Source: Clostridiaceae bacterium (GTDB lineage: Bacteria > Bacillota > Clostridia > Clostridiales > Clostridiaceae). From it: a DNA stretch of 64,000 nt. The stretch spans positions 1-64,000 of the forward strand of contig JACMJL010000033.1 of assembly GCA_014380625.1 (NCBI GenBank), read 5' to 3'. Below, one piece after another: positions 8,777-59,980 of this stretch (its first letter is position 1; each line of letters starts with the position of its first letter). The position numbers and the translations under genes were made by a program. The notes under the pieces were generated by a model that was given only the letters and a program-made list of their open reading frames with translations, did no database searches and was not told where the DNA came from.

Positions 8777-9208
8777 ATGTTAAGGAAAGGTATGTTTTTA
8801 ATTATTCTACCCTTAATAATTGGTATAGGGATTTATGCACTTTTTAGAAGCAGTGATATGGTTATTTTCTCCTGGTTTCCAGTATTTAAAACTGTTAAAG
8901 ATATGGTTAAGTTAAATTCTAGCTTGGATTTTTTAAATCCTGTAATAAAAAATTATATTTTATTTTCTGTGCCTGATGGATTATGGTTATACTCATTTAC
9001 TAGTAGTATGATTCTAATTTGGAAGAAATCTAATTTTAGATATAAGAATTTATGGATGTTTTCAGGTGGAATTATTGCTATAAGTCATGAGGTAGGACAA
9101 AGATTAGGTTTATTTAGTGGTACCTATGATGTAAAGGATTTAACTACATATTTAATTGCAACTATAGTGGCAGTAAGTGTAACTAATATTTTTTTTAAGG
9201 AGGCTTAA
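8777..9208 (+). CDS. VanZ-like small membrane protein
   Basis: AISHEVGQRLGLFSGTYDVKDLTTYLIA resembles the VanZ ExxQ...GxFDxxDlxxN pattern; 4 hydrophobic segments. Confidence 0.5.
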   Translation: MLRKGMFLIILPLIIGIGIYALFRSSDMVIFSWFPVFKTVKDMVKLNSSLDFLNPVIKNYILFSVPDGLWLYSFTSSMILIWKKSNFRYKNLWMFSGGIIAISHEVGQRLGLFSGTYDVKDLTTYLIATIVAVSVTNIFFKEA

Positions 9209-9212
9209 TAAT

Positions 9213-12200
9213 TTGAGAACAAAATTTAGAGTCGTTCTATCTATGTTTGTAATTGTAACTTTCTGCATTATGCTGCTTGGAAGTAATAAGAAGATTGCAG
9301 ATAATGGTAAAAGCGATTGGACATTATCATGGAGCGATGAATTTAATGGTACAAGCGTTGATACAACTAAATGGGATTACGATATTGGCAACGCCATTGT
9401 AGATAAGGACGGAAATAAGGTTACCGAGGGTTGGGGTAATAATGAATTAGAATATTATACTAAGTCTACCAAAAATGTAGGTGTTAAGGATGGCAAGTTG
9501 TCTGTAACAGCTTTAAAAGAGACCTCACCTGCACAATTCGGCAAAACTTTTAATTATACTTCAGGTAAAATAAAAACCTTAGGTAAGTTTTCTATGAAAT
9601 ATGGAAAACTTGATATAAAAGCAAAACTGCCTATTGGAAAAGGGTTATGGCCAGCAATATGGATGTTACCTGTAAAGGATGCTTATGGTGGATGGGCAGC
9701 TTCGGGAGAACTTGATATAGCAGAAGGCTGGGGGAGTAAACCTCAGACTGTTGCTGGAACAATCCATTATGGGGCTACTTGGCCAAATAATAAATATACT
9801 GGAAAAGAGTTCAATTTTCCAACAACTACCTCAGTAAATGAATTTCACAATTACGGTCTTGAATGGGAACCAGGCGAAATAAGATGGTATATTGATGGTG
9901 TATTATATCAGACACAAAACAATTGGAGTACAAAAGGTGTTGATAATGAACAAAAATACTCTTTCCCAGCACCCTATGACCAGGATTTTTATTTAATATT
10001 AAATCTGGCTGTAGGCGGTAATTTTGATGGAGATCCTATTGCAGAGACAAAATTCCCAACAGCTATGGAAGTTGATTATGTTAGAGCTTATAAGCTTACA
10101 GGTAGAGAATATAAAACTCCTGTTGAACCTAAAGTAACAATGGAACCATTACCTACAGGGGCAAAGGTAGCAACAGCAGATGGCAATTTACTAAGTAATA
10201 GTAACTTTACAGAACCAATCCAAGATAATCCAGAAGCAGCTCTAGACTTTTCAGATAAATGGAACTTTGTACATGTGTCTCAATTTGCAGGAAATGGAAC
10301 GCAATCTATAGATACTATTGATGGAAAGAAATATGCAAAGATAAGTGTTACTAATGCAGGATCACAAAATGTTTCAGTGCAACTCATTCAGCTTACAACA
10401 CTGGGAAAAGGAAGATATTACAAGGTGTCCTTTGATGCTAAAGCAGCTACAACCAGAAAAATTGGTATGAAGATGTCAGGTGGTGCAGAGGCAGGCTGGG
10501 GTGTTTATTCAGATATTTATGATTTTGCCTTAACGGATAAATTTCAACATTTTGAAAAGGTATTCCAGATGGCGGGGGCCTCTAATATTAAATCTCGTCT
10601 TGAATTTAATTTGGGTTCTGACACTAACGCTGTTTGGATTGGTAATGCAAGAGTTGAAGAGGTTAATGCACCTATTCAAAATTTTGATGCTTCAAAAACA
10701 CCATTTTCAGATGGGAACCATATTTATAATGGTACCTTTGATAAAGAAAGTATAGATCGTATGGCTTATTGGAATTTCAATGTAGCAACAGGAGCAGAAG
10801 CAACAGCAATTGTGCCAGAGGCTACAAGAGAATTGTTTGTTAAGGTAAGTAAGGGTGGAAAAGAGGCAAGCGCAATTACTTTAAATCAAAAGGGAATTCA
10901 ATTAGAGCAAAATACTGACTATAAATTAACCTTTAAGGCTAGAGCAAAATCAGCAAAAACGATTAAGGTAGGCTTCTTAAGTAAAGATGGTACAGTTAGT
11001 TATAATGAGGATAAGACAATAAATTTAACAAAGTCAATGGAGGAAAAAACCATTAGCTTTAAGATGAATAAACCTACGGATTCAGAAGCTCAGATAATAT
11101 TTAAACTTGGTGGGGATAACAATGATGTATATATGGATGATGTAACCTTAACCTCATCAATAAATTATTCATTAGTTGATATTTATCCGCTTAAAAATGG
11201 TGATTTTTCAAAAGGGTTAGAGTCATGGACACCATATCCTAACATAGGAGATGGTGCAGCTTCAACTATTACAGCAGTAAATGGAGCCGCTAAAATTTCA
11301 TTAACTGCACCAGGACCAAATCCTTATTCTGTAATGCTAAATCAAGAAAATTTTAAAGTTACTAAGGGAGTTCAATATAAAATAGCTTTTGATGTAAGCG
11401 CAACAGCAGAAAGAAGTATAGGAATAGTTATTGACAATGCAGCCTATTATCAATATTTAACTAAAAATGTAAAAGCCACTAGCGGAGTTACTCATTATGA
11501 GTTTACATTAATACAAGCAAAGGATGATACTGTTAGTTTGAAATTCTTATTAGGAAATGTTGATGCAACAGTACCAACCAAAGCGCATGATATAGTTATT
11601 GATAATGTAGTTTGTGAAGTTAAAGATGCACCTTTCAAGAGGTCTCCTACATTAACTAAGAGTGAAACTGATAATAAACTTACTAAACCTATAAATATTA
11701 CCTTTACTGATGACTTAGCTTGGCGAAATGCAATAACTTCTGTAAAGATTAATGATATTGCAATAGCAACAAATAGATATACAGTAGCAGCAGGTAAAAT
11801 TACTTTAGCTGCAGACAACTTTGCTACTATTGGTAATTATACTATTATGGTTGTAGCTAATGGATACGCCAATGCTACTTGTGTACAAGATATAAGAGCT
11901 AATGACAATTTAATAATCAGTAATGGAACTTTTGATGCTGATACAACTGGATGGTCAGTATATACAGGTGATGGTTCAAATGCTAGTGTAGCTTCAGCGG
12001 ATGGAAAGCTGAAAGTTAGTTTCCCTGATTATGCTGGTTGGAATAGATGGTCCACCCAAGTATATCAAGATACAATAAAGTTAGAAGCAGGAAAGAAATA
12101 TGTACTTAAGTTTGATGCCAGTTCAACAGTGGCAAGAGATGGCTGGGTGGAAATGAATAACATGGAACAACAAGTTTTAGCACTAACACCTACAACCAAA

Positions 12201-43121: not shown

Positions 43122-43724
43122 CTAGGGTTTAGTAAAATATTTATCAATTAAGCTTTCAGCTAGTCGTTTATTAGCCTCTGCTTGAGCTACCAAGGTGATA
43201 ATAGTTAAAAATATTTCGGCAGTACCCCTGTCCTTATCAGTTAGGTTAATTTCAGAAATTTTATCCTTAATTTGTTCAAGATTTCTATTACATATATAAA
43301 TATAGTTATCAGCTTCTGAATTTTTCATTTCTAAAAAAATCGAATAAATATCCTCAAGCGGAATAATATCATCTTTTGAAGTTGTAATGTCTTTTAAAAT
43401 AGGTTTGAATAAAGCCTTTATATCATTTATTGAAAGTATTTGCTTCAAGTGGTAGATTAGTATTAAGGAAATAATATGATATTTGGTATATTTCTTTTTG
43501 TTTTTGGGGGGCATTAATATACCATCTTTTGTATAACTATTTATCATGGTTTTAGTTAATAACTTATCATCTTCATTTCTTTTTAATCCATCTAAATTAG
43601 TATCTATAAAACTTGTTAATTGTTCCATGTACAAATCTATATTGGGAATATCAGAAGGATTAATATCCTTTGATAGATTAATAGCGTTTAATAATTCATC
43701 TATATTTAATTCCATAGGTTTCAC
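43122..43724 (-). CDS. DUF1836 domain protein (putative regulator)
   Basis: TKTMINSYTKDGILMPPKNKKKYTKYHIISLILIYHLKQILSINDIKALF typical DUF1836. Confidence 0.85.
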   Translation of the reverse strand: MKPMELNIDELLNAINLSKDINPSDIPNIDLYMEQLTSFIDTNLDGLKRNEDDKLLTKTMINSYTKDGILMPPKNKKKYTKYHIISLILIYHLKQILSINDIKALFKPILKDITTSKDDIIPLEDIYSIFLEMKNSEADNYIYICNRNLEQIKDKISEINLTDKDRGTAEIFLTIITLVAQAEANKRLAESLIDKYFTKP

Positions 43725-43992: not shown

Positions 43993-44640
43993 ATGGGAAT
44001 TTTCAGTAGAATAGGTAAGATGACACAGGCTAAAATAAATAATGCTATTGATGAAATGGAGAATCCAATAGAGTTGTTAGATCAAAAGCTTAGAGATATG
44101 GAAAAATCACTAAATGATGCAAAGATAGCATCTGCTCAGGTCCTTGGAAGTTTTAAACAAACTGAAAGAAAAATGAAGGAAGCTTTAGCAGAATCCGTAG
44201 AATGGGATGAAAAGGTTAAACTTGCAATGAGTAAAGGCAATGAAGATTTAGCTAAAAGAGCTCTTGCAAAAAAACTTGACTGTGACAAGTCTTATGAGGT
44301 ATTTAAAACTACTTATGAAGCAGAGAAAATTAAGGCTGATCACTTGAAGAAAAAGTTAGTGGAGTTAGAAGCAGAAGTAGATAAAACTAGAAGTTATAGA
44401 GATGAAGCCGTTGCAAGATTAACCAGTGCTGAAGCTGGAGTTAAAGTAAATGAAATTTTAGCGAATGTCTCAACAAAATCAGGTGCTATCAACATGGATA
44501 GTATAGAGAGAAAAATAGCAAAGAAAGAGAACTTAGCAGAGGGTCTTGGAGAGATAGCAGAAGTTGATACTTTGGATAGTGAGTTTGAAGCTCTAGGAAA
44601 TCCGGATTTAGATGCTGAATTGGAGAAGTATAGAAAGTAA
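43993..44640 (+). CDS. PspA/IM30 (LiaH-like) family protein
   Basis: MGIFSRIGKMTQAKINNAIDEMENPIELLDQKLRDMEKSLNDAK; long coiled-coil. Confidence 0.92.
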   Translation: MGIFSRIGKMTQAKINNAIDEMENPIELLDQKLRDMEKSLNDAKIASAQVLGSFKQTERKMKEALAESVEWDEKVKLAMSKGNEDLAKRALAKKLDCDKSYEVFKTTYEAEKIKADHLKKKLVELEAEVDKTRSYRDEAVARLTSAEAGVKVNEILANVSTKSGAINMDSIERKIAKKENLAEGLGEIAEVDTLDSEFEALGNPDLDAELEKYRK

Positions 44641-44664
44641 ATCTTTATAAAAATAAATTTTGAA

Positions 44665-44752
44665 GGAACTGTCTCAAAATAAAATATCAATACAATATTA
44701 TACCCTAACGCAAATGAGCGTAGCATGTATAGTGCTATTATTTTGAGACACC
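44665..44752. repeat. Degenerate GGGACT-type hairpin repeat, copy D, enlarged loop
   Basis: GGAACTGTCTCAAAATAA ... ATTATTTTGAGACACC with a long intervening sequence. Confidence 0.6.
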
Positions 44753-44792
44753 ACTATTGCTTCATAATAATTAAGAAAGTAGGAGATTAGGA

Positions 44793-45443
44793 TTGACTTT
44801 TGAAAAGTTTATAGAGAAAGAAACAGCAGATTACGGGAAACTTTATGCTGATGTGATTTTCGCCTTAGAGGAGATAGAGGAGTTTGTACCTAGTGAACAG
44901 TTAAGAGAAAGAAAGTTTGTAGAATACTTACCTACATTAAAGGCATATATGGATATTTTGAAAAATACTGAAATTGATAATCATACCAAAGGAGTCTTTG
45001 CAAAGGTTTTTGGTAACAGTGATTCTCAAGCTGCAGTTATTGAAAAATTTAAATCTGAAAATGTGGAAAAGTTTGATCAAATTAGAAGTTGTGTGAATTG
45101 CAAGTGCTTAACATGTTCAAATGAGTGCATTATGGAAGGTTGCAATAGATGTGAGAAGAGTGGACGAGTAGCCAAATGTGATAAGAAGACAACTTGCATA
45201 TATACTTTTACAAATAAAGAACTCCAATTAACAAACAATAAGACTGGTGAAGATAGTTTGTATAATGTTTTGTCTATAGTTCAAGATAAAGAATATAATC
45301 AATTGTTCATAATAATAGAATTAAATAGAGAAAAGTTTGTATTGTATTTTTATCCAGGTATCAGTGAAGATACCTATGGAGAAATATCTGATGTAGAAGA
45401 CTTTAATTTTGCCTTTAGTGCCTATGAACAGGCGGAGCTTTAA
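44793..45443 (+). CDS. Uncharacterised protein with Cys-cluster (putative metal-binding) in Ter module
   Basis: SCVNCKCLTCSNECIMEGCNRCEKSGRVAKCDKKTTC: nine Cys within about 37 residues, flanked by alpha and beta-rich regions. Confidence 0.65.
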   Translation: MTFEKFIEKETADYGKLYADVIFALEEIEEFVPSEQLRERKFVEYLPTLKAYMDILKNTEIDNHTKGVFAKVFGNSDSQAAVIEKFKSENVEKFDQIRSCVNCKCLTCSNECIMEGCNRCEKSGRVAKCDKKTTCIYTFTNKELQLTNNKTGEDSLYNVLSIVQDKEYNQLFIIIELNREKFVLYFYPGISEDTYGEISDVEDFNFAFSAYEQAEL

Positions 45444-45498
45444 AAATGTTGTTTAATCATTTTCATTAAGGTAAAATGTAGTTAGAGGATGATAAAAA

Positions 45499-46416
45499 AT
45501 GAAAACAAATAAATATATTATAGATAACTACAAGGTGTTAGGTAAAAAATTTTATAGAGAAAGAAATATTGAAAGGGCTTTAGAGTTTTATAATAAGGCA
45601 TATAACTTAATTAAAGGCAAAGAAGATGTTGAACTTCTTTTAGATATGGCTATTATATATGATGAGCTTGATGAGTTTTCTCTGGCAGAAGAGAAATATA
45701 AAGAGGTAATTTCAATTGATAGTAAAGATGCTAGGGCTTATTATGGACTAGGCACAATTTGTGATACAAAGGAAGAAAATGAACAGGCAGCAGAGTTTTA
45801 TGAGAAGGCTATTGAATTAAATCCTGAATATAATAGAGCATATTTTTTTCTTGCAAACGTCTATGAGGCATTAGGTAAAAATGAAAAAGCCATTGAAGCT
45901 TATAGAAAGGTTATTGAACTTGATGATCAGGACTTTTGGGCATATACAAACTTAAGTTGTATTTATGAAGAAATGGGACAATATAAGCTTGCATTAGGCC
46001 TTTTAGAGGAGAGTTTAAGGATAGACTCAGATCAATACCTGGCTCTTTTTAATATGGGTGTGGTTCTAGGGAACTTAGGTAGGGAAGAAGAGGCAATAAA
46101 GTATTATAAAAGAAGTATTCAAGAAAATCTTAACTATCCTTATAGTTATTTGAATCTAGCTGTTATTTATAAGGAAAGAGGTTTTTATGATATAGCTTTA
46201 AAAATAATAACCGGTGGTATTCTTAATAATTCCCAAGAGGGATTCTTGTATTACAATAGAGCTTGCTTTTATGTTCATGAAGGAAAAACACAAGAAGCTT
46301 TAAAGGATTTAGAAACAGCTATTGATTTGTATCCAGATTTCAAGAAATATATAAAAGAGGATGAAGAACTGGATTCATTGAGGAGCTTGGCCAGCTTTAA
46401 AGAGCTTAGTAAATAG
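45499..46416 (+). CDS. Tetratricopeptide repeat protein
   Basis: Repeated AxxxY/LGxxxxxxxxxxxAxxxYxKAIELNPxY units. Confidence 0.92.
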   Translation: MKTNKYIIDNYKVLGKKFYRERNIERALEFYNKAYNLIKGKEDVELLLDMAIIYDELDEFSLAEEKYKEVISIDSKDARAYYGLGTICDTKEENEQAAEFYEKAIELNPEYNRAYFFLANVYEALGKNEKAIEAYRKVIELDDQDFWAYTNLSCIYEEMGQYKLALGLLEESLRIDSDQYLALFNMGVVLGNLGREEEAIKYYKRSIQENLNYPYSYLNLAVIYKERGFYDIALKIITGGILNNSQEGFLYYNRACFYVHEGKTQEALKDLETAIDLYPDFKKYIKEDEELDSLRSLASFKELSK

Positions 46417-46499
46417 ATTCAAATATTAGACAAATATTAAAGGATTAACTACTAAAATGTAGAATATATACAAGGTAGAATATTTATACGGGTGATTAT

Positions 46500-48914
46500 A
46501 TGATAGCAGCAACAAAATTTCCTATACTTTTAAAAAGCAATAAAGTTTTTAATGATATGTTACTGCCACTTAGAGAACGAAAAACCTCTTTAGATGACAG
46601 TAATAGTTATGTGTTTTTTTGTAGATATATTGGATTAACCACAGAAAATGAATATTATGATAAAATATTAAACTTTCATAGAGAGTTAAGCAAGCTTACG
46701 AATATCTATCTTGTTTTGAAGAATAAAATTGATATTCCCTTAAGTTCAGAAGTAACAGATAAAATAAACAGTTGTATCAGTTCCATAGGAGTAGATAAAC
46801 TAGCTTCAGGAGAAATCATTGATGTTCTTGAACAGAACAATATTTTTTCTGCTTTTTTAGATTCGACTCTAAAAGTCAACGTAAGAGAGGCCTTTAGAGA
46901 AGTAATTTGCTTATTTGTAGCAAATGAAAAACTATCAAATGTTAGCATTGGAATAAACTTTATTATTAAGTTAATGTGTTGGGTTAATAGATATGTTCCA
47001 TCCTTGTTTGATTTTTCTATGACAGTTTATAATCCAAAAGTAATGTATTATGGAGATATAAAAAAACATGAGGGTTACTTTTTAATTTTATTGTCTTTAA
47101 TTGGTTGTGACGTCATCTTCATAAATACTAATTCTGACGAGATTTTTAATGCTATAGATAAAATGAATAGATATTCCTATGTAATTGAAGAACCAAAAAG
47201 AATGGTAGTTAAAGAAATAGAACTTTTGGCAAGCAAGGTGAATATGTCTATAACTAGTGAAAGGAAAACCTCTCCTAAAGTTATTTTAAGGGGTTCAACT
47301 GATATCTTTAATGACCTACTCCTGCCAATTAATCAAAGATTGGATTTTATTGAGAACACTATTTATCCAGTTTTCTTTCAGCGGTATATTGGAGTAGAAG
47401 ATAATAGCAATAATGGGTTGGATATTTATTATAATGCTATATTTAATATAGATAAAAAACTTTGTGGTTTAAAAAATGGGTATGTAAGGTTTGATAGACC
47501 TATTCCTATGATAAGTGGAGAGGAAACGGCTAACATATTAAAGGAGTTACAAGACCCAAACTTTTTTAACTTAAGCCAAAAAGATATTTTTATAAATAAA
47601 CTATTGAACTTAAAAGTCTTTCCAAAATCCAAGGATGAAATTATGAATTTACAAATAAAAAAGGCTTTTAGAGAAATAATTTATTTGTATATAGAACGAG
47701 ATCAAAGCATAAACACCTCTAAATTGCAAAACTTTGTAGTAAAGCTTATTGGCTGGATAAATAGTTATATAAACCTACTTTTTAAAGAGTTAATACAAGA
47801 TGCTAACCCTAAAATATTATATTATGGTGAAATAAAGCAACATGATATATATTTCCTAATATATTTTTTTAAACTAGGTTGTGATGTGATTTATATAAAT
47901 TCAGAGGAGAATTATGAAAAGCTGTTTCAAGATATTGATCCAAGTGACCAGTATTCAACAGTAATAAAGTTAAAGGAACGTTGCAAGTTGCAAGAATTTC
48001 CATTGATGGAGAGACAAGTAAGGAAATCCACTGTTGCATATAATGCCTCTAAGGAAATAGAGCAGGTCATTTATGGTGATGGAGAAACGGGACTTTTTAA
48101 AGCTAGACAGTATGATGAAGGTCAAACTTATTCAGTTGGACTTAAAACTACTTATGATGAACTTAAGATATTATGGAATGAACCTGCTAATATAAGACCA
48201 GAATTTAGAGTGGAAGGTAATACAGTTTATGTTCCAAATTTATTTGCTAAAATAAATGGAGTTTTCGAAAATATAAATGATTACTGGTCAGATTATAAAT
48301 ACTTTACTGTGGCACATAATACTTTTATAGTTAAAGGATTGCCCTTTACAAAAATAATGTATTCAAAACAGGATCTGTTTGCTTCTGCATTTCTTTTTAA
48401 TGACAAGGGGTTAGTGGATGAGAATAAATTATTTAAAAGCTCTTTATATAAAATGGGATATTTAAAAAATTCCCTTCAACATTTTATAGTACATAAAATT
48501 AATGAGTTAATTCTATCCAAGGTCTTTAAAGAAAATTATGATGAAAAATTCAAACTCAAAATCCTTATGACTATTATTAACATGGAGGGTGAAATTCTAA
48601 AGTTACTAGAAAAGTTTGACTTTACTGCAGAAGTTCCTAAGCTAGTTATCTACGATAATACAAAAGAAAATTTTAGTGAGGAAGACATTATTTTAATAGC
48701 CTTCATGAATAAGGTAGGAGCAGACATAGTTATATTTGCACCTACAAATTATAATAATGTAGAAACCTTAATAAGGGATAGCTTATTTGATGTCCATCAA
48801 TTAAAAACTGTGGCATTTGAACTACAAATACCTGAAGTAACTAATATTAGTGAGAAAAGTACTAAATCATCAATCTTTAAATTTTTCGATTTCAAAGGAG
48901 GAAGTAAAAGATGA
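46500..48914 (+). CDS. YceG-like protein, Ter biosynthetic-module component, enlarged by internal repeats
   Basis: PKVMYYGDIKKHEGYFLILLSLIGCDVIFIN-type motif repeated; next to TelA and TerD genes as in yceC-H loci. Confidence 0.8.
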   Translation: MIAATKFPILLKSNKVFNDMLLPLRERKTSLDDSNSYVFFCRYIGLTTENEYYDKILNFHRELSKLTNIYLVLKNKIDIPLSSEVTDKINSCISSIGVDKLASGEIIDVLEQNNIFSAFLDSTLKVNVREAFREVICLFVANEKLSNVSIGINFIIKLMCWVNRYVPSLFDFSMTVYNPKVMYYGDIKKHEGYFLILLSLIGCDVIFINTNSDEIFNAIDKMNRYSYVIEEPKRMVVKEIELLASKVNMSITSERKTSPKVILRGSTDIFNDLLLPINQRLDFIENTIYPVFFQRYIGVEDNSNNGLDIYYNAIFNIDKKLCGLKNGYVRFDRPIPMISGEETANILKELQDPNFFNLSQKDIFINKLLNLKVFPKSKDEIMNLQIKKAFREIIYLYIERDQSINTSKLQNFVVKLIGWINSYINLLFKELIQDANPKILYYGEIKQHDIYFLIYFFKLGCDVIYINSEENYEKLFQDIDPSDQYSTVIKLKERCKLQEFPLMERQVRKSTVAYNASKEIEQVIYGDGETGLFKARQYDEGQTYSVGLKTTYDELKILWNEPANIRPEFRVEGNTVYVPNLFAKINGVFENINDYWSDYKYFTVAHNTFIVKGLPFTKIMYSKQDLFASAFLFNDKGLVDENKLFKSSLYKMGYLKNSLQHFIVHKINELILSKVFKENYDEKFKLKILMTIINMEGEILKLLEKFDFTAEVPKLVIYDNTKENFSEEDIILIAFMNKVGADIVIFAPTNYNNVETLIRDSLFDVHQLKTVAFELQIPEVTNISEKSTKSSIFKFFDFKGGSKR

Positions 48915-50038
48915 ATTTAACAGGAAATGAATTTCAGCCAAAGGAAGTAAAAACACAAGAGGTAATAATAAAACCTGTAGAAGAATTCAATGTTGTAGAA
49001 CAAAAGGAAAAAATGGCATTAAAGGTTCAGAACTCTCCAGAGGTTATGAGTATTGTTAGGCAAATAGATATCAAAAACATGGATAGCATTATGAAGTTTG
49101 GTAATTCAACAGCAGAAAATATTGCTAAGTTCTCTGATTTGTTGCTTCATCAAATGGAAATTGCAAAGGTTGAGGACTCTGGTACAATGTTGATGCAATT
49201 AAATAAAATAATGGAGAAGTTTGATATAAAGGATTTTAAAGAAAAGGAACCTGGCTTTTTAGAAAAATTATTTAAGAAAGTGAATACCTCTATTGAAGCT
49301 ATATTTAAGAAATATCATACTATGGGAGATGAGGTAGACAAGGTATATGTGACTTTAAAAAGTTATGAAGCTGAGATCTCAACTGCTAATAAAAATTTGG
49401 AAAGTATGTTTGAGAAAAATTTAGAGTATTATGAGGAATTAGAAAGATATATTTATGCTGGAGAATTAGCTCTAGAGGAATTTAATAATAATATAATCCC
49501 AAGTTTAGAGAAGAAAGCAGAAGAATCAGGAGATAGAATAGATCAAATGGAAGTTTCTAACATGTTACAAGTTAAAGAAATGTTTGATCAAAGAATTTAT
49601 GATCTTAAGTTAGCAGAAAATATTGCGCTTCAAACTATGCCTTCTATCAAGACTATACAATATGGTAACTATAATCTTGTAAGAAAGATTAACTCTGCCT
49701 TCATAATTACTTTACCGATATTTAAGCAATGTTTGACTCAATCAATAATGCTAAAGAGGCAGGATATACAGGCCAAGGCTTTATCAGCTCTGGATGAAAA
49801 AACTAATGAATTGCTACTAAGGAACGCTCAAAACACAGCACTTCAGTCAAAAATGACTGCTAAATTAGCATCAGGAAGTTTTGTATCTATTGAGACCTTA
49901 GAGAAATCTTGGCAGACTATAGTAACAGGCATAGAGGAGACAAAGCAAATTCAAAACGAAATGAAACAAAAGAGAGTTGAGGGAAGCCAAAGACTACAGC
50001 AATTAAAAAAGGATTTTGAAGATAGAAAATTACTTTAA
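48911..50038 (+). CDS. Toxic anion resistance protein TelA/YceH-like
   Basis: GNSTAENIAKFSDLLL, RQDIQAKALSALDEKTNELLLRNAQNTALQS, coiled-coil; ATGA overlap with yceG-like gene. Confidence 0.9.
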   Translation: MNLTGNEFQPKEVKTQEVIIKPVEEFNVVEQKEKMALKVQNSPEVMSIVRQIDIKNMDSIMKFGNSTAENIAKFSDLLLHQMEIAKVEDSGTMLMQLNKIMEKFDIKDFKEKEPGFLEKLFKKVNTSIEAIFKKYHTMGDEVDKVYVTLKSYEAEISTANKNLESMFEKNLEYYEELERYIYAGELALEEFNNNIIPSLEKKAEESGDRIDQMEVSNMLQVKEMFDQRIYDLKLAENIALQTMPSIKTIQYGNYNLVRKINSAFIITLPIFKQCLTQSIMLKRQDIQAKALSALDEKTNELLLRNAQNTALQSKMTAKLASGSFVSIETLEKSWQTIVTGIEETKQIQNEMKQKRVEGSQRLQQLKKDFEDRKLL

Positions 50039-50121
50039 GTTATAGATTTAAGGGGAAGTTTTAGCTTCTCCTGTTTCATATATTGAATTATTAGACAGAT
50101 GGAAAGGAAAAGGAATTTTAC

Positions 50122-51165
50122 ATGAGATATTTTAATAGCATAAAGAATAAAAATGTTTTTTATAAAGAACCAGAGCATTTCTATTTCAGTTCTGAAAAAG
50201 ATTTGCTTTCTCATGCACTTGGTGCAACAATTTATATGCCTGCTAACAGGGAAAACCTAATGAAAGATGTACTTAACACATCTTCTTGTGCCGTGGTAAT
50301 TTGTTTAGAAGATGCTGTCCCAACTAGTTTAGTTGAAGAAGCAGAGCGAAATTTAAGTGATTTTTTTACTGCAATTGAAAGTAGAGCACGTGAAGATAAA
50401 GACTTTTTAGATGCCTTACCTTTAATATTTATCAGAGTAAGAGATAAAGAGCAACTATTGAGACTCTTGAACAAATCTATGCTTGAAGGACTTTGTGGGC
50501 TGGTAATTCCAAAGTTCAGACCAGTTGAAGGTGAAAAGTATCTAGAAATAATAAGTGAATATAATGAAAGGAATAAAAAACATTTATATGTAATGCCAAT
50601 TCTGGAAACACCAGAAGTTATTTATAAGGAAACTAGAATTGAGGAATTGCTAAGAATTAAGAAAGTTTTAGATAATTATAAGAATCTGATCTTAAATATA
50701 CGTATTGGTGGGACGGATTTTTCAGGAGTTTATGGCCTTAGGAGAAGCTCTGAAGTAACCATATATGATGTAACTGTAATTAATGATTGTATTGGTGATA
50801 TTGTAAATATGTTTAAACGAGATGATTATGTTATTTCTGCTCCTGTAAATGAATATTTTGCTGGCAATTTAGAAGTGTTAATAAAAGAAATTAGTTTAGA
50901 CAAGGCTAATGGACTTTTGGGGAAAACTGCAATACATCCAAAGCAAGTTGGAATTATTAATTCTCTAATGGCTGTTTCTAAGGAGGAGTATTTGGATGCA
51001 GAGGCAATTTTAATTTCTGAAATAGATGGGGTTATAAAAAGTTCTTATTCTAATAAAATGAATGAGGTCAAGCCTCACTTGAAGTGGGCGCAGGAAATCA
51101 AAATACTTTCAAGGATAACGGGGGTTTTAGACGATGGAAAAGACTTTAGAGACGTACTCAAATAG
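50122..51165 (+). CDS. HpcH/HpaI aldolase/citrate lyase-like C-C bond lyase
   Basis: LGATIYMPANRENL, VICLEDAVP, GLVIPKFRP, LNIRIGGTDFSGVYGLRRS, GLLGKTAIHPKQV. Confidence 0.88.
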   Translation: MRYFNSIKNKNVFYKEPEHFYFSSEKDLLSHALGATIYMPANRENLMKDVLNTSSCAVVICLEDAVPTSLVEEAERNLSDFFTAIESRAREDKDFLDALPLIFIRVRDKEQLLRLLNKSMLEGLCGLVIPKFRPVEGEKYLEIISEYNERNKKHLYVMPILETPEVIYKETRIEELLRIKKVLDNYKNLILNIRIGGTDFSGVYGLRRSSEVTIYDVTVINDCIGDIVNMFKRDDYVISAPVNEYFAGNLEVLIKEISLDKANGLLGKTAIHPKQVGIINSLMAVSKEEYLDAEAILISEIDGVIKSSYSNKMNEVKPHLKWAQEIKILSRITGVLDDGKDFRDVLK

Positions 51166-52474
51166 TAAGAGAGAATATGTTATTGATAAAAATTTACATA
51201 TTAATTTACATATTAAAAAAAACAGATATAAAATACCAAGTGAGTTTCTTTTTAGCATGGCAGCTAGAAAAAACACTAAAAGGGAGTTTTTATTTGTAAG
51301 TAGAGTTATTGGTAAACATCTACCTATGACACCACTAGCACTTAATCTTATTGGTGGAATTTTAGCAAGAAGTTGGCTAGAAGAACGAGAAAATATACTT
51401 TTAGCGGAAACAAAGGTATTAGTTAATGCTTTTAATTATCTTCAAGGGCTAGAAATCGGACAACCTACAGAAATTTCTAGGATAGAATCAGCCATAGAGA
51501 TCTTAAAAAGTCCAATAAAGCTTACTCATAAGACTCTTTTTATAGGGTTTGCAGAAACTGCAACAGGACTTTCACATGCAGTTTTCAATAGTTTCTCCAA
51601 TTCTACATATATTCACACTACCAGGGAGGATATTAAAGGTATAGAAGCAAGTATTCTATTTCAAGAAGAGCATTCCCATGCTATGGAACATCAGCTTTAT
51701 CCTATTAATACTAATATATTTCAGGAACACGAAGATATAGTGTTAATTGACGATGAACTAACTACAGGAAAAACAGCATTAAACCTTATTAATAAAATTA
51801 AAGGGAAGTCCTTTGGTATAATTTCTGTGCTAGACTTTCGAGAAAAAGAGCAGGAGCTAATTTCTGATAGTTACAATGGCAAAGCTGTGAGGATTTGTTC
51901 TTTAATTAAGGGGACTATCAGACCTAGTAAAACTGGGCAATTAGATTTTGTAGATAAAATGGATGCTGCTTTGATGGATAAAGAGGTTACCTTTAAAGAA
52001 ATCAAGGTGAACAAAGGCAACTTTATTCACGGATATATAATGGAAACAGGAAGATTTGGATGTACTTCAGAAATGCATAGGGAGTTTATGGTAGAGGTAA
52101 AGAATATTGCTGTTGATTTAAAGAAATTAAGGATTGCTGGAAACTGTTTATGCATAGGTACAGAGGAGTTTATTTATATACCTTGTGCTATAAGCAGCGA
52201 AATGGGTAGTGAAATTTATTTTCAATCAACTACTAGAAGTCCTATTTATGTAAGGAATCTTCCTAACTACGGGATAAACACAAAAATTACTTTTAAAACT
52301 TCAGAAGATTTAGAAACTCAAAAGTATATGTATAACATACCTAAGTCATTCTATAAACAAGTATTTATGTTCTCAGAGAAGCCTTTAGAGGAGGATAAAA
52401 AAGAGGAGTTCGCTCAGATATTTAATCATTATAATATTAAGAATGTGGTGTTTGTAAGTTTCCAAGAAAGTTAA
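51134..52474 (+). CDS. Phosphoribosyltransferase with C-terminal TRSP domain
   Basis: PRPP loop IVLIDDELTTGKTALNLI; IGFAETATGLSHAVF; TRSP-like HGYIMETGRFGCTSEMHREF. Confidence 0.88.
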   Translation: MEKTLETYSNSKREYVIDKNLHINLHIKKNRYKIPSEFLFSMAARKNTKREFLFVSRVIGKHLPMTPLALNLIGGILARSWLEERENILLAETKVLVNAFNYLQGLEIGQPTEISRIESAIEILKSPIKLTHKTLFIGFAETATGLSHAVFNSFSNSTYIHTTREDIKGIEASILFQEEHSHAMEHQLYPINTNIFQEHEDIVLIDDELTTGKTALNLINKIKGKSFGIISVLDFREKEQELISDSYNGKAVRICSLIKGTIRPSKTGQLDFVDKMDAALMDKEVTFKEIKVNKGNFIHGYIMETGRFGCTSEMHREFMVEVKNIAVDLKKLRIAGNCLCIGTEEFIYIPCAISSEMGSEIYFQSTTRSPIYVRNLPNYGINTKITFKTSEDLETQKYMYNIPKSFYKQVFMFSEKPLEEDKKEEFAQIFNHYNIKNVVFVSFQES

Positions 52475-52555
52475 GTAAGATAATTTCTCAGATAAACAAA
52501 TCCTGCGGTATTCCGTAGTCGGTTATAACTATCCTATAAGAGGAGGCAAGAGTAA

Positions 52556-53644
52556 ATGAATGAAAATATATTATCTGGTAGTTATCCTTTAGAGGATGTT
52601 ACTTTTTTACTAAAGAATATTAATGGATTAATTGAAGAACAAAACAATGATTATAGGGAAAATGCAATTCAAAGTGGAGTTCACTATTCGGAAATGCTTC
52701 CTATAGAGTATCACCCCTCTAGCGAATATATGGATATTTTTCATGAGACCTTAGCGCAGAGTAAGAAAAAATTAGCCCAGCTTACTGCTGTACTAAGCGA
52801 AGAAATAATTAAAAAAAGAGGGGATAAACTAGTGCTGGTTTCCTTGGCTCGCGCTGGTACTCCCATTGGAATTTTAATAAAAAGATACATAAAATATAAG
52901 TATCATATAGATGTTCCTCATTATAGTATCTCCATAGTTCGAGACATAGGGATCGACGAAAATGCTCTTAACTATATATTAAAAACCCATCCAAATAGTC
53001 AGCTACAGTTTATTGATGGGTGGACAGGTAAGGGTGTAATTCAACAAACCTTAATCGAGGCCTGTAATAAGTTTTATGCGGATTACAATATTAAACTTAA
53101 TCCGGATTTAGCGGTATTGTCAGACCCTGCATATTGCACAGATACTTATGCTACTAGAGAAGATTTTTTGATTCCTAGCGCATGTTTGAATTCTACTGTG
53201 TCTGGACTTATTAGTAGAACTGTATACAATAAAAAATTTATAGGTAAAGAAGATTTTCATGGGGCAAAATATTACTCTGAATGGGAAACTTCAGATGTAT
53301 CAAATAATTTTATAGATACAGTAACTGGGGAGTTTGAAGGAGTAGATAAAGCTTATTACTCAGAAAAAGATACTACTAATAATAAGGGACTTAAGGATGT
53401 CAAAAACATACAGAAAATATATGAAATTGATAATATAAATCTTATAAAGCCAGGGGTAGGTGAAACTACTAGAGTATTACTTAGGAGGATTCCTTGGAGA
53501 ATTTTAGTAGATTCCTTAGATAACCCTAACTTAAGACATATCTATAGGCTTGCAGCGGATAGAAAGGTTAAAGTAGAAATATTCAAGGATATGTCTTACT
53601 CCTGTTGTGGCATAATTAAGCCAAAAGGCTTGGGTGATATTTAA
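52556..53644 (+). CDS. StiP-like protein (PRTase-like plus C-terminal PELOTA-like RNA-binding domain)
   Basis: LVLVSLARAGTPIGILIKRYIKYKYHIDVPHYSISIVRDIGIDENALNYI...FIDGWTGKGVIQQ; C-term VLLRRIPWRILVDSLDNPNLRHIYRLAADRKVKVEIFKDMSYSCCGIIKP. Confidence 0.87.
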   Translation: MNENILSGSYPLEDVTFLLKNINGLIEEQNNDYRENAIQSGVHYSEMLPIEYHPSSEYMDIFHETLAQSKKKLAQLTAVLSEEIIKKRGDKLVLVSLARAGTPIGILIKRYIKYKYHIDVPHYSISIVRDIGIDENALNYILKTHPNSQLQFIDGWTGKGVIQQTLIEACNKFYADYNIKLNPDLAVLSDPAYCTDTYATREDFLIPSACLNSTVSGLISRTVYNKKFIGKEDFHGAKYYSEWETSDVSNNFIDTVTGEFEGVDKAYYSEKDTTNNKGLKDVKNIQKIYEIDNINLIKPGVGETTRVLLRRIPWRILVDSLDNPNLRHIYRLAADRKVKVEIFKDMSYSCCGIIKPKGLGDI

Positions 53645-54438
53645 TGATTTTTGCTTCAGATTTAGATCGTACTCTTATTTATTCTAAGTCCTTTATTAAT
53701 GAAGAAATGAAGGATGTCTTTCCCGTGGAAAAAAAAGATGGAGTAATAATATCTTATATGAGTAAGAACTCCATGGAAATATTAAACCTTTTGAGTAAAA
53801 AAGTTATCTTCATACCTGTAACTACTAGATCTTTAGAACAATTTAATAGGATTACCTTCTTTAAGGATAGTTTAATAAATAAATATGCAGTTGTGGCTAA
53901 CGGTGGAGTATTAATTAAAAATAATGAGATTGATTTAAATTGGCAGAAACTAATACGTAAACAAATGGATGAAATTATTTCACCAGAGGAGTTATTAAAT
54001 AATTTAGGCCGGTTTCTGAAAAATCCTGAGGTAAATTCCTTTAGGTGTTGTGATAAGGTATTTATATATATTGTTTTAAAAACTAATGTTATAGAAGAAG
54101 AATATTTAATTGAATTACAGCTGTTCTGTGGTGACTATGGTTATGGAATGGTTAAGAATGGTCGAAAGATTTATATAATTCCACATTTCATAAATAAATG
54201 GGCACCGCTAAAATATATAATGGAAATGGAGCAAGATGATCAATTAGTAACTGCTGGAGATTCTATTTTAGATTTGCCAATGCTTGAAAATTCTATGTCG
54301 GGTTTTATTCCTGCCCATGGAGAATTAAATATGAAATATGGACAATTACTTTTGGGTAACAATAAAATATTTTGCACAAGTTGCCATGGGATATATTCTA
54401 GTGATGAATTATTAAATAGAATATATAGGATTGTTTAA
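53644..54438 (+). CDS. HAD superfamily (Cof/sucrose-phosphatase-like) hydrolase
   Basis: FASDLDRTLIYS (DxDxT), VTTRSLEQFNRI, LVTAGDSILDLPML. Confidence 0.88.
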   Translation: MIFASDLDRTLIYSKSFINEEMKDVFPVEKKDGVIISYMSKNSMEILNLLSKKVIFIPVTTRSLEQFNRITFFKDSLINKYAVVANGGVLIKNNEIDLNWQKLIRKQMDEIISPEELLNNLGRFLKNPEVNSFRCCDKVFIYIVLKTNVIEEEYLIELQLFCGDYGYGMVKNGRKIYIIPHFINKWAPLKYIMEMEQDDQLVTAGDSILDLPMLENSMSGFIPAHGELNMKYGQLLLGNNKIFCTSCHGIYSSDELLNRIYRIV

Positions 54439-54446
54439 ATACAAAA

Positions 54447-54484
54447 GGGACTATCTCAAAATAAAATGATTTTGAGATAGTCCC
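54447..54484. terminator. GGGACT-type hairpin repeat, copy E; likely bidirectional terminator between HAD and TerD operons
   Basis: GGGACTATCTCAAAATAAAATGATTTTGAGATAGTCCC, near-perfect inverted repeat with T tract. Confidence 0.85.
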
Positions 54485-54497
54485 TTATTTAAGCTTT

Positions 54498-55103
54498 CTA
54501 ATATCTGCCTATTATAGTTTTTAAAGAATCATCTGTAGTTGACTCACCGATAGCTGCAAATTTCCATTCTTCTTCATGCCTGTATATTTCTCCAACGATA
54601 AGAGCCGTTTTTCCGGCATAATTACCTGAAAGATCATATCTTATTAATTCTTTCTTGTTAGAGTCATTTAGCACTCGAATGAAAGCATTTTTTATCATTC
54701 CAAAGTCCTGATGTCTTTTTATACAGTCATAAATATTTACGGTAAATAGAAGTTTTTTGAAATTCTTAGGTACCTTTGATAAATTAACAAGGATTACTTC
54801 GTCATCTCCATCACCTTGACCTGTTAAGTTATCGCCAGTGTGAACTACGCTTCCATCTTTACTTTTCAAGTTGCCAAAGTAAACAAGATTAGTAACACCC
54901 TGGAGCTTATTGTTTTCGTCTAGCATAAGCACTGAAGCGTCGCAATCGATATCCACAGTACTTTTACCTAAAAGGGAACTGAATAAGCCTTTAGCACCTT
55001 TCTGTGCAACTTCATCCCAACCTAACCCTACAATGATTTTTGATAATCCACTATTTCCTTTAGTTAAATCTACCTTTTGACCTTTTTCAAGACTAACTGA
55101 CAT
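54498..55103 (-). CDS. TerD family protein (TerZ/YceC-like subtype)
   Basis: LQKGQ-type VDLTKGNSGLSKIIVGLGWDE...[36 protein letters not shown]. Confidence 0.93.
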   Translation of the reverse strand: MSVSLEKGQKVDLTKGNSGLSKIIVGLGWDEVAQKGAKGLFSSLLGKSTVDIDCDASVLMLDENNKLQGVTNLVYFGNLKSKDGSVVHTGDNLTGQGDGDDEVILVNLSKVPKNFKKLLFTVNIYDCIKRHQDFGMIKNAFIRVLNDSNKKELIRYDLSGNYAGKTALIVGEIYRHEEEWKFAAIGESTTDDSLKTIIGRY

Positions 55104-55133
55104 AGTTATCGCCTCTTCCCGCCAAATACTTTA

Positions 55134-55730
55134 TTAATTTGTATAACGACCAATTATAGATTTTAATGAAGGATCATTTGTACCTTCACCAGTAGCTGAA
55201 AATTTCCATTCACCATTATTTCTATACATCTCCCCTAATATAAGAGAAGTTTTTCCAGCATAGTTTTCGGAAAGGTTATACTTTAACAACTCTACATTGC
55301 CAGAAGTATTTACAATACGAATAAAGGCATTGTTAATCAAACCAAAATCTTGCTTTCTATTTATACAGTCATAAATATTAACAACAAAAATTAATTTGTC
55401 TATTTCTTCAGGTACTTTTGATAAATCCACTAGTACTTGTTCATCATCGCCATCCCCATCACCAGTTAAATTATCTCCGGTGTGGGTTACGCTTCCACAA
55501 CTACTCTTTAAATGACCAAAATAAATAACACTCTCCATACTACTGAGTTTACCTAATTTATTTATCATTAAAACAGAAGCATCACAATCAATATTGGCTG
55601 GTTTTTTACCAAAGAGACCTCTGCTGACTGGAGCTGAAGCATCCCAACCTAGGCCAACTAAAATCTTTGATAAACCCTTGTTTCCTTTTGTAAGATCAAC
55701 ACGTTGACCCTTTTGAAGATTTACTGACAT
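55134..55730 (-). CDS. TerD family protein (TerZ/YceC-like subtype)
   Basis: NLQKGQRVDLTKGNKGLSKILVGLGWD...NIDCDASVLMI, HTGDNLTGDGDGDDEQVLVDLSKVP. Confidence 0.93.
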   Translation of the reverse strand: MSVNLQKGQRVDLTKGNKGLSKILVGLGWDASAPVSRGLFGKKPANIDCDASVLMINKLGKLSSMESVIYFGHLKSSCGSVTHTGDNLTGDGDGDDEQVLVDLSKVPEEIDKLIFVVNIYDCINRKQDFGLINNAFIRIVNTSGNVELLKYNLSENYAGKTSLILGEMYRNNGEWKFSATGEGTNDPSLKSIIGRYTN

Positions 55731-55778
55731 TATTGTTTCCTCCTATATTTATCATATTGATTAAAGTAATAAGGTGAT

Positions 55779-56357
55779 TTAAACATTAATTCCAAAATTT
55801 AAGCAAAGTGATCTTAGGCCACCATGGAATCCACTACCTATGGCGTTGAATTTCCACTCAGTACCATATCTGTATAGCTCCCCAACAACTATAGCCGTTT
55901 CAACGCTAAAATCTTCACCTAAATCATATCTAATTATTTCTTCACCATTTTCTTCATTACAGAGTCTAATATAAGCATTTGAAATTTGACCAAAATTTTG
56001 AATTCTTGTTTCTGCATCAAAAATTGTTACAGTAAAAGCAATTTTTTTTATATTCTGAGGAACTTTTGTTAAATCAACAGTAATTTGCTCATCATCGCCA
56101 TCGCCTTCACCGGTGAGATTATCTCCCATATGTATTACAGCGCCTGAAGAATGTTTCAAGTTATTGTAAAATACAAAATCTCCATCACTTAGTGTTTTGC
56201 CAGTTTCACCAACTAAAAAAGCTGCAGCATCTAAGTCAAACTGGAATCCACCATCATATCTATTTGTGTCCCAACCTAAACCGGCAATTACCTTTACCAA
56301 GTTAGGATGCCCTTTAGTTAAATCAACCTTTTGACCCTTTTGTAGATTAATTGTCAT
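55779..56357 (-). CDS. TerD family protein (TerD/TerE subtype)
   Basis: [70 protein letters not shown]. Confidence 0.95.
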
Positions 56358-56401
56358 CTTAATCACCCTTTTCAAAATTATTAATTATTTTCTTTGGTGT
56401 A

Positions 56402-56980
56402 TTAAACTGATACTCCAAAGTTTTTGCATAAGGATTCTAGACCACCTTGAAAACCACTACCTATAGCATTGAATTTCCATTCAGTTCCGTTTCTGTATAA
56501 CTCAGCTACTACTACGGCTGTTTCAACACTAAAGTCTTCGCCAAGATCATATCTTATTAATTCTGCACCAGTTTCTTCATTACAAACTCTAATAAAGGCA
56601 TTAGATACCTGCCCAAAGTTTTGTTTTCTTGCATCTGCGTCATTAATTGTTACTGTGAAAGAAACCTTTGAGATATTTTGTGGAATTTTACCTAGCTCTA
56701 TCTTTAATTGTTCATCATCGCCATCACCTTGACCAGTTAAGTTATCACCTAAATGAACTACTGAACCAGAAGCATCTTTTAGATTATTGTAAAATATAAA
56801 ATCGGCATCACTATTTACTTTTCCCGTTTCACCTAAAAGAAAAGCAGCTGCATCTAAGTCGAAATCTGAACCTCCATCGTACTTGTTTGTATCCCAGCCA
56901 AGTCCTATTAGTACTTTTGTAAGACCAGGATTACTCTTCGTTAAATCTACCTTTTGACCCTTTTGTAAACTAACTGCCAT
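56402..56980 (-). CDS. TerD family protein (TerD/TerE subtype)
   Basis: [70 protein letters not shown]. Confidence 0.95.
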
Positions 56981-57187
56981 TTTAAATCCTCGCTTTCATT
57001 ATTTTAAATTATTTGAATTGTGTATACATCATTATTTTACAATATATTTACATTAAATGCAATGAAGTAAATGTATATTGGGAAAAATAGAACTGCCATA
57101 TAGAGAAATGAAACATAATACTTGATTTTTGTGGAATTTAAAGTAGAATTAGTATTATATTTAATAATTTAAAGAGGGTGTGGGAAA

Positions 57188-59980
57188 TTGAAATATTTTA
57201 ATGTCAACACTGAAGAAGCTTTAGAAGAGCTTAAAGTAGATAGTCAAAAGGGGTTAAATGATTCAGAAGTTGAAAAAAGAATGCTTAGATATGGGAAAAA
57301 TGAGTTTACTCCTTTAAAGGAGAGTTCATTACTTGAAGAAATAATTGACGCTATTAAGGAACCTATGATGGTAATTTTACTAATCGCTGCTGTAGTTAGT
57401 GCATTAATTGGTGAATGGCAAGATGGAATAGGTATTGTTTGTGCAGTTATAATTGGAATAGGCATAGGAATTATTACGGAAGGTCAATCTGCTAAAGCGG
57501 CAGATGCACTTTCTAAAATGACTGAAGATATAGTTGTAAAAGCCTTAAGAAATGGTAATATACTTCAATTAAATAAATCTGACTTAGTGCCAGGAGATAT
57601 AATTTTAATAGAAACAGGAGATATGATTCCTGCTGATGGTAGGTTAGTAGAGAGTGTAGACCTTAAAATTAGAGAAGACATGCTTACAGGAGAATCAGAG
57701 GATGTTTCTAAGCGCGATGATATACTTGTACTTATGGAAACCTTAAAAAAGGGCGATAAGGAGCTTATACAAGATCCTATTCATGCTAAACAAAGGAATA
57801 TGGTATTTGGTGGAACCTTTGTAGCTTATGGAAAGGGTAAGATGGTAGTTACTGCTACTGGAGATAGCTCAGAAATGGGAATGATAGCTCAAAATCTTTG
57901 TAAACTTGATATTGAGACTCCACTTCAAATTAAACTAGGCAACCTTGGTGGAATGATATCTAAAATATCAAGTATAATTGCTCTTTTATTATTTATAGTA
58001 ATGGTTATGAAGATGGTTTTATTAAAAACAATAAATATAGATCTTTCTGGATTTTTTCCGTTCTTAGATTCAATTTCTCCTATTAAAACCTCTTTCATAG
58101 TTTGTATAGCACTGATTGTTGCAGCAGTTCCAGAAGGACTACCTACAATGATTAACATGACATTAGCCATAACTATGCAAAGAATGGCAAAAATAAATGC
58201 TTTAGTTCGTAAGAAAGAAGCTTGCGAGACTATTGGGTCTGTAAGCGTAATCTGCTCAGACAAGACAGGTACTTTAACTCAAAATAGAATGTCTGTAGAA
58301 AAAGTTTATTTAAATAATGAATTCGTGGAATATAAAGAGAGTAAAGCACATAATTACTTTGTAGAAAATTGTATTTTAAACTCTACTGCAGATATAGAAA
58401 AAAGTGAAGAGGGAATAAAATACTTAGGAAATGCTACAGAGTGTGCACTATTACTTTATAATGAAGAACATGATTACATAGAATATCGTAAGTCAAAAAA
58501 AGTTGTTCATCAAGTTCCTTTTTCTTCCGAAAGAAAGCGAATGTCTACAGTTGTGAATGGTGACGAAGAATATGTAGTGTATTCAAAAGGAGCTCCTGAG
58601 ATAATATTAGAGCTTTGTAGCTATGAATTAGTTAATGGAAAAATAATAGCATTAACCGAGCCTAGTATAAGAGAAAAATTAACAGAGATTGAAAAACTTC
58701 AGAAAAATTCAAGTAGAATAATTGCCTTTGCACATAGAAGCCTAGAAGCAGAAGTAGCCCTTACTGCAGAGGAGAATTTTCACATGTTAGAAAAAGGACT
58801 TGTTTTTGAAGGTTTTGTAGGAATAAGAGACCCTTTAAGAACAGATGTTAAGGCTGCTATTGAACTGGCGGAAATAGCTGGAGTAGAGACTAAAATGCTT
58901 ACAGGGGATAACATAAATACTGCAATCTCTATTGGTAGGGAATTGGGAATACTTAAAAATAATAAAATAGCTGTGGAAGCATCTTATATTGATGTTTTAA
59001 GTGATAAAGAATTACAAAAGGAAATTAAAAACATTGCAATCGTGGCTCGTTCTAAGCCTGATACTAAACTAAGGATTGTAGAAGCTCTTCAAGCAAACAA
59101 CGAAGTTGTAGCTGTAACAGGAGATGGTATAAATGATGCACCTGCTTTAAATAGAGCAGATGTTGGTATTGCTATGGGAATAGCAGGAACTGAAGTAAGT
59201 AAAAATGCAGCAGATATATTATTAACAGATGATAACTTCAGTACAATAGTACAAGGTATTAAATGGGGCAGAGGAATATATCAGAATTTTCAAAGATTTA
59301 TTCAATTTCAGATTACTGTTAATTTTGTAGCTTTTCTTACTGCAATTTTATCAGTATTACTAGGACTTACTATGCCTTTTACAACTATTCAGTTACTATG
59401 GGTTAATATTATTATGGATGGGCCACCCGCATTATCCCTTGGATTAGAACCCGTTAGAAATGAAAGTTTGAATAAGAAGCCAGTTAATAGAAATGCAAGT
59501 ATAATAACAAGAACTATGCTTACAAGTATGATTTTGAATGCAATCTATATTACAGGTATTATATTGACTCAGATGAAATTTAATATTTTAGGCGTTGATT
59601 TAAAGAATGTAATTATAAATAAAAGTACTAATGAAATTTCAGGTTCTGAAATGGGTACAGTTTTATTCGCATTATTTGCCTTTAGTGCATTGTTTAATGC
59701 TTTAAATTGCAGAGAATTTGGATTAGATAGTATAGTTAAGCATTTTACTCATAATAAGATAGCCTTAAAAATTATTTCAATAACTGCAGTTGTTCAAATT
59801 CTTGTAACACAATTTCTGTCAGGATTCTTTAACTCAGTACCTCTAAGTATAACTCTGTGGATAAAGGTGATAGCATTAGCCGCTATGATAATTGTTATTA
59901 ATGAATTAGTTAAATTTATTGGAAGAACAATTATCAAGAAAAAGGTTAATGAAAAGGACTCTTTAGAAGAAGCAGCTTAA
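57188..59980 (+). CDS. P-type calcium-transporting ATPase (PMCA/SERCA-like)
   Basis: TGES motif (MLTGESEDV), VICSDKTGTLTQN, AAVPEGLP, VTGDGINDAPALNRADVGIAMG, LWVNIIMDGPPALSLGLEP. Confidence 0.93.
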   Translation: MKYFNVNTEEALEELKVDSQKGLNDSEVEKRMLRYGKNEFTPLKESSLLEEIIDAIKEPMMVILLIAAVVSALIGEWQDGIGIVCAVIIGIGIGIITEGQSAKAADALSKMTEDIVVKALRNGNILQLNKSDLVPGDIILIETGDMIPADGRLVESVDLKIREDMLTGESEDVSKRDDILVLMETLKKGDKELIQDPIHAKQRNMVFGGTFVAYGKGKMVVTATGDSSEMGMIAQNLCKLDIETPLQIKLGNLGGMISKISSIIALLLFIVMVMKMVLLKTINIDLSGFFPFLDSISPIKTSFIVCIALIVAAVPEGLPTMINMTLAITMQRMAKINALVRKKEACETIGSVSVICSDKTGTLTQNRMSVEKVYLNNEFVEYKESKAHNYFVENCILNSTADIEKSEEGIKYLGNATECALLLYNEEHDYIEYRKSKKVVHQVPFSSERKRMSTVVNGDEEYVVYSKGAPEIILELCSYELVNGKIIALTEPSIREKLTEIEKLQKNSSRIIAFAHRSLEAEVALTAEENFHMLEKGLVFEGFVGIRDPLRTDVKAAIELAEIAGVETKMLTGDNINTAISIGRELGILKNNKIAVEASYIDVLSDKELQKEIKNIAIVARSKPDTKLRIVEALQANNEVVAVTGDGINDAPALNRADVGIAMGIAGTEVSKNAADILLTDDNFSTIVQGIKWGRGIYQNFQRFIQFQITVNFVAFLTAILSVLLGLTMPFTTIQLLWVNIIMDGPPALSLGLEPVRNESLNKKPVNRNASIITRTMLTSMILNAIYITGIILTQMKFNILGVDLKNVIINKSTNEISGSEMGTVLFALFAFSALFNALNCREFGLDSIVKHFTHNKIALKIISITAVVQILVTQFLSGFFNSVPLSITLWIKVIALAAMIIVINELVKFIGRTIIKKKVNEKDSLEEAA

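Follow-up and report, generated by a model that had tools for sequence, protein, structure and literature searches.

Is a Ter-type module that stands directly behind a PSP operon functionally coupled to it, or are the two chance neighbors? The question is raised by a locus in a 64,000-nucleotide stretch of DNA from a Clostridiaceae bacterium (the window; contig JACMJL010000033.1), which derives from a draft assembly that is 81% complete and comprises 338 contigs. The locus is a complete Ter-type chemical and envelope-stress module of the Bacillota kind that lies immediately 3′ of a co-directional PSP operon (Table 1). The set of lyase, PRTase-TRSP, StiP-PELOTA, HAD, YceG, TelA and TerD proteins is a standard Ter-type module that already is known by prediction; the new element is the position of this module behind the PSP operon. 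Every ORF named in a preliminary description of the region was recovered in place and without internal stops, with nine genes on the forward strand, four TerD genes convergent with these on the reverse strand, and the ATPase gene divergent from TerD1. The named Ter, PspA and TPR domains were all found by Pfam, and the ATPase by NCBIfam. The gene span that had been proposed for the locus also stood, but its start was slightly off as the divergent DUF1836 gene, which belongs with PspA, had been omitted. An Rfam search of positions 36000-64000 produced no match.

Table 1. Features of the PSP/Ter locus, with positions numbered from the start of the window.
Feature	Position	Strand	Evidence or remark
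DUF1836 regulator, divergent from pspA	43122..43724	-	PF08876 3.8e-32
PspA/IM30	43993..44640	+	PspA_IM30 PF04012 7.6e-42
Spacer, 152 nt, 13-bp inverted repeat (TGTCTCAAAATAA/TTATTTTGAGACA)	44641..44792		relatives mostly 1-25 nt
CysR (tentative name), Cys-rich	44793..45443	+	no Pfam/NCBIfam/PHROGs match
TPR protein, 305 aa	45499..46416	+	TPR_1 8.7e-41
YceG_bac protein, long form, 804 aa	46500..48914	+	PF14266 6.5e-126, three stretches
TelA	48911..50038	+	PF05816 1.3e-110
CitE-like C-C bond lyase	50122..51165	+	PF15617 (C-C_Bond_Lyase) 4.6e-109
PRTase_2 + TRSP protein	51134..52474	+	PRTase_2 4.4e-54, TRSP 1.8e-37
StiP + PELOTA_1 protein	52556..53644	+	StiP 1.7e-106, PELOTA_1 7.1e-34
HAD-IIB phosphatase	53644..54438	+	Hydrolase_3 5.7e-6
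Hairpin, 18-bp, terminator-like	54445..54486		between the convergent operons
TerD paralog	54498..55103	-	PF02342 5.4e-73
TerD paralog	55134..55730	-	PF02342 9.1e-72
TerD paralog	55779..56375	-	PF02342 2e-82
TerD paralog	56402..56980	-	PF02342 5.5e-85
P-type Ca2+ ATPase, PMCA-type	57188..59980	+	NCBIfam TIGR01517, 642.6 vs cut-off 507 bits

The PSP side of the junction was compared with other clostridial operons in a scan of named genomes that yielded 63 loci with a recognizable CysR ORF. CysR was encoded immediately 3′ of PspA in all 63, mostly with a spacing of 1-25 nt. PspA, the Cys-rich protein and the TPR protein had been regarded initially as a front end specific to this locus. This view holds insofar as the three are absent from all 54 Ter loci used for comparison, but the PspA-CysR pair constitutes a PSP operon that pre-exists in clostridia and is conserved there, and its presence in 63/63 loci rules out an ad hoc addition. 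The TPR protein is particular to the window locus among those compared (0/54 Ter loci, 0/64 PSP loci). A Ser-rich protein with a membrane segment is encoded upstream of pspA in 56 of the 63 operons, but this membrane partner is absent from the operon in the window. Four copies of the Ser-rich protein that were tested gave no Pfam match over the cut-off; the protein has a conserved PIPIP motif and its membrane segment is C-terminal. A divergent DUF1836 gene on the opposite strand is located near 22 of the 63 operons, and the DUF1836 protein of the window shares 58% identity with that of Tepidibacter thalassicus and about 30% with that of the next best locus. Among 14 control genomes the family was detected in B. 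subtilis only, which is consistent with membership of the htpX repressor YkrK, which we take to be a DUF1836-type regulator. Comparison of DUF1836-pspA intergenic regions with that of the window for a shared operator motif revealed AT-rich palindromes only and nothing convincing.

CysR itself matched no entry in Pfam, NCBIfam or PHROGs, and 7 of 18 relatives matched DUF1292 weakly. Of the 208 genomes searched from this bacterial family, 112 contained relatives, which were spread over 27 of 46 genera. Residues C100, C103, C108, C117, C120 and C129 are invariant in 47 sequences, and two further cysteines are nearly so. The predicted structure (mean pLDDT 83) comprises a helical N-terminus, a cysteine knuckle and a β-rich C-terminus. 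A fold search of this model against the PDB returned no significant match, and comparison of the CysR profile with the sequences of solved structures gave a single insignificant match. A second CysR copy in the locus of one relative (8881-11156 there) does not adjoin PspA; the two proteins on either side of it (261 and 264 aa) gave no Pfam match. As judged from sequence conservation, CysR is a conserved, unmodelled family of putative PspA partners in the Clostridiaceae. To our knowledge, no PSP system has been studied in the Clostridiaceae, and CysR provides a concrete new handle on the working of PspA in this family. The sections consulted of two recent PSP surveys mention neither a CysR-like clostridial family nor a link to TerD or TelA.

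For the Ter side, loci were located via the lyase, StiP or TRSP and then annotated with the window proteins; 54 Bacillota loci of at least 15 kb were counted. The Ter gene set is kept across these full-length loci, as would be expected of a module, with a core of HAD (54), lyase (52), StiP (52), PRTase (51) and TerD (49). Other members are the Ca2+ ATPase (28), YceG (26) and TelA (17). The Ca2+ pump was described originally as a further locus-specific addition. This is ruled out by its presence in 28/54 comparable loci, and the pump therefore is a recurring member of Ter loci. PspA, CysR, the TPR protein and DUF1836 were each found in 0/54 full-length Ter loci; PspA, CysR and the TPR protein therefore are the odd members here.

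Functional coupling and chance adjacency of the two modules were weighed about equally. Rearrangement or insertion that juxtaposed a complete Ter module and a standard clostridial PSP operon, leaving the two uncoupled, has a likelihood slightly short of even. Such an event would fit the rarity of the arrangement: PSP genes accompany none of the 54 Ter loci, Ter genes lie within 10 kb of 0/63 PSP operons, and no other fetched locus has the modules adjacent, the junction being known from one draft genome. In other examined genomes that have both, the PSP and Ter loci are apart, as in Clostridium sp. OS1-26 in which CysR and TRSP are separated by about 477 kb. Moreover, among the 208 family genomes TRSP was present in 50, CysR in 112, and both in 15, compared to an expectation of 27 (Fisher p 1.5e-4, phylogeny uncorrected), and this negative co-occurrence also speaks for chance. 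Set against these counts is the organization of the locus itself. The PSP and Ter genes are on the same strand with short gaps from CysR onwards (55, 83, -4, 83, -32, 81 and -1 nt, in order, through HAD), and PspA and CysR were each detected once in the 81% complete draft genome, both beside the Ter module. There also is a precedent for joint control as pspA-ydjGHI and yceC-H of B. subtilis are both under σW (PMC3498285). In addition, htpX, the gene of a membrane protease, is subject to repression by YkrK (PMC11790237). By analogy with this σW control and with repression of htpX by YkrK, a common membrane-stress trigger, and with it a functional link between the PSP and Ter modules, is plausible.

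The region between pspA and cysR bears on the same question. The spacer is palindromic, which favors chance juxtaposition, and its repeat half-sites recur as palindromes across the genome (64 strand matches vs. 0 for a reversed control pattern). The palindrome could uncouple the operon. Furthermore, the PSP unit at the window locus may be degenerating because it lacks the Ser-rich membrane partner and the CysR of the window lies on a long branch in the tree.

Whether the Ter module is equipped for synthesis of a metabolite was assessed from domains and conserved residues. All members of the catalytic set are present with Pfam support, which substantiates the earlier reading of the locus as one Ter biosynthetic module. 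In alignments of 26-27 orthologs the lyase keeps the invariant residues E63, D64, R105, K131, E162 and D199, and the PRTase keeps the invariant PRPP-loop residues D206-D207-E208-x-x-T211. The HAD phosphatase is the weakest domain call of the locus (Hydrolase_3 5.7e-6), yet the match is above its cut-off and the HAD motifs are intact as judged by eye. The 804-aa form of YceG is ordinary because other loci encode both long forms of 743-879 aa and short forms of 513-543 aa. Searches of the sequences of solved structures with YceG, TelA, lyase, PRTase and StiP found no relative. No TerC gene is present in the locus and one is located on another contig of the genome; TerC in the locus was not treated as required for membership of a Ter-type module. 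A search of an anti-phage library returned just generic TPR-type matches and one weak match, that of the PRTase to the PADLOC model PRTase_III-A (E 2.3e-5).

The StiP family is named a cysteine protease in Pfam, and were StiP to act as such the module would serve mainly proteolytic signaling instead of metabolite synthesis. Among 27 StiP orthologs, 26 retain C210 and all retain H235, and comparison of StiP with PRTase_2-TRSP profiles gave no significant match. However, no cysteine is invariant in StiP, whereas the D-x-W-T-G-K-G loop, which reads D-G-W-T-G-K-G in the window protein, is invariant at D154 and W156-G160 in the alignment of 26-27 orthologs. Furthermore, the larger part of a StiP model resembled PyrR/HGPRT-type PRTases in Foldseek comparisons with the PDB (probability 0.9-0.99) and the PELOTA part resembled L7Ae/Snu13-type proteins (probability 1.00), with E-values of about 1e-3 to 1e-2 overall and about 2e-3 to 9e-3 for the PyrR/HGPRT matches. 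The model was built on four sequences, namely the window protein and three viral-contig proteins, and is of moderate quality (mean pLDDT 68, pTM 0.72). It supports a PRTase-like fold joined to an L7Ae/PELOTA-like domain in StiP, in line with the original assignment, and a protease-centered module is very unlikely. Three IMG/VR contigs, one of which is 235 kb, encode StiP beside PRTase, lyase, HAD or TerD.

An assembly chimera at the PSP/Ter junction is extremely improbable: the genome is an incomplete draft in many contigs, but tetranucleotide composition shows no break across the junction and a second PspA or CysR copy was not found in the genome.

The explanation preferred for the locus as a whole, that of a Ter module behind the PSP operon of the genome with a path from stress to metabolite, is nearly as probable as not. 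In the working that we infer for its regulation, product and coupling, membrane stress would lift repression by the DUF1836 protein, and PspA and CysR would act at the membrane, CysR probably as a PspA partner whose cysteine knuckle is metal- or redox-binding. Levels of the TPR protein, YceG, TelA and the four enzymes would be raised via read-through or co-regulation. The lyase would act on a small acid by breaking or forming a C-C bond, phosphoribose would be attached or processed by the PRTase-type proteins, and dephosphorylation by the HAD phosphatase would leave a nucleoside-like product. At the membrane, the TerD proteins and TelA would respond jointly, with Ca2+ set by the Ca2+ pump. A more ambitious version is rather unlikely: a fused envelope-stress circuit in which a PspA-CysR sensor/effector and the DUF1836 repressor would drive synthesis of the Ter metabolite as the chemical output of membrane damage, with CysR as a new metal/redox-sensing family of PspA partners that occurs in more than half of the searched Clostridiaceae genomes. 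The placement of the Ter module right behind a PSP operon makes membrane stress as a trigger a directly testable hypothesis, and the adjacency hints, in a way that is open to test, that production of the Ter metabolite might be turned on by damage to the membrane.

Among known systems, the yceC-H operon of B. subtilis presumably lacks the lyase, PRTase and StiP enzymes and includes the TerC-type YceF, unlike the locus in the window. The operon likewise encodes TerD paralogs, YceG and the TelA-type YceH, and is controlled by envelope stress through σW, σB and σM (PMC3498285). In the pspA-ydjGHI operon, the companions of PspA are a zinc-ribbon protein and a membrane partner (PMC11237479). CysR belongs to a different, unmodelled family and the band-7 protein of pspA-ydjGHI is absent here; the upstream Ser-rich membrane protein of clostridial relatives, which is missing at the window locus, also distinguishes those operons from pspA-ydjGHI as described there. 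In C. difficile, metronidazole leads to higher synthesis of TerD paralogs (PMC6262375). No defined product or trigger of the Ter biosynthetic module was apparent in the literature searched. Anantharaman, Iyer and Aravind (2012, as cited in PMC8115787) predicted a nucleoside-like metabolite as the product of the Ter set, and PMC8115787 itself gives the interplay of the TerC complex with the biosynthetic cluster as unclear. The Ter systems of the 2012 study share the set of TerD, TelA, lyase, PRTase-TRSP, StiP-PELOTA and HAD with the window locus (PMC8115787), whereas here a PSP operon stands in front and TerC is absent from the locus. Although a PspA, CysR or YceG front end is not described for the ter locus of Klebsiella and E. 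coli in the sections consulted, its two opposed operons likewise place a biosynthetic cluster, which includes a HAD gene, facing terZABCDEF (PMC8115787).
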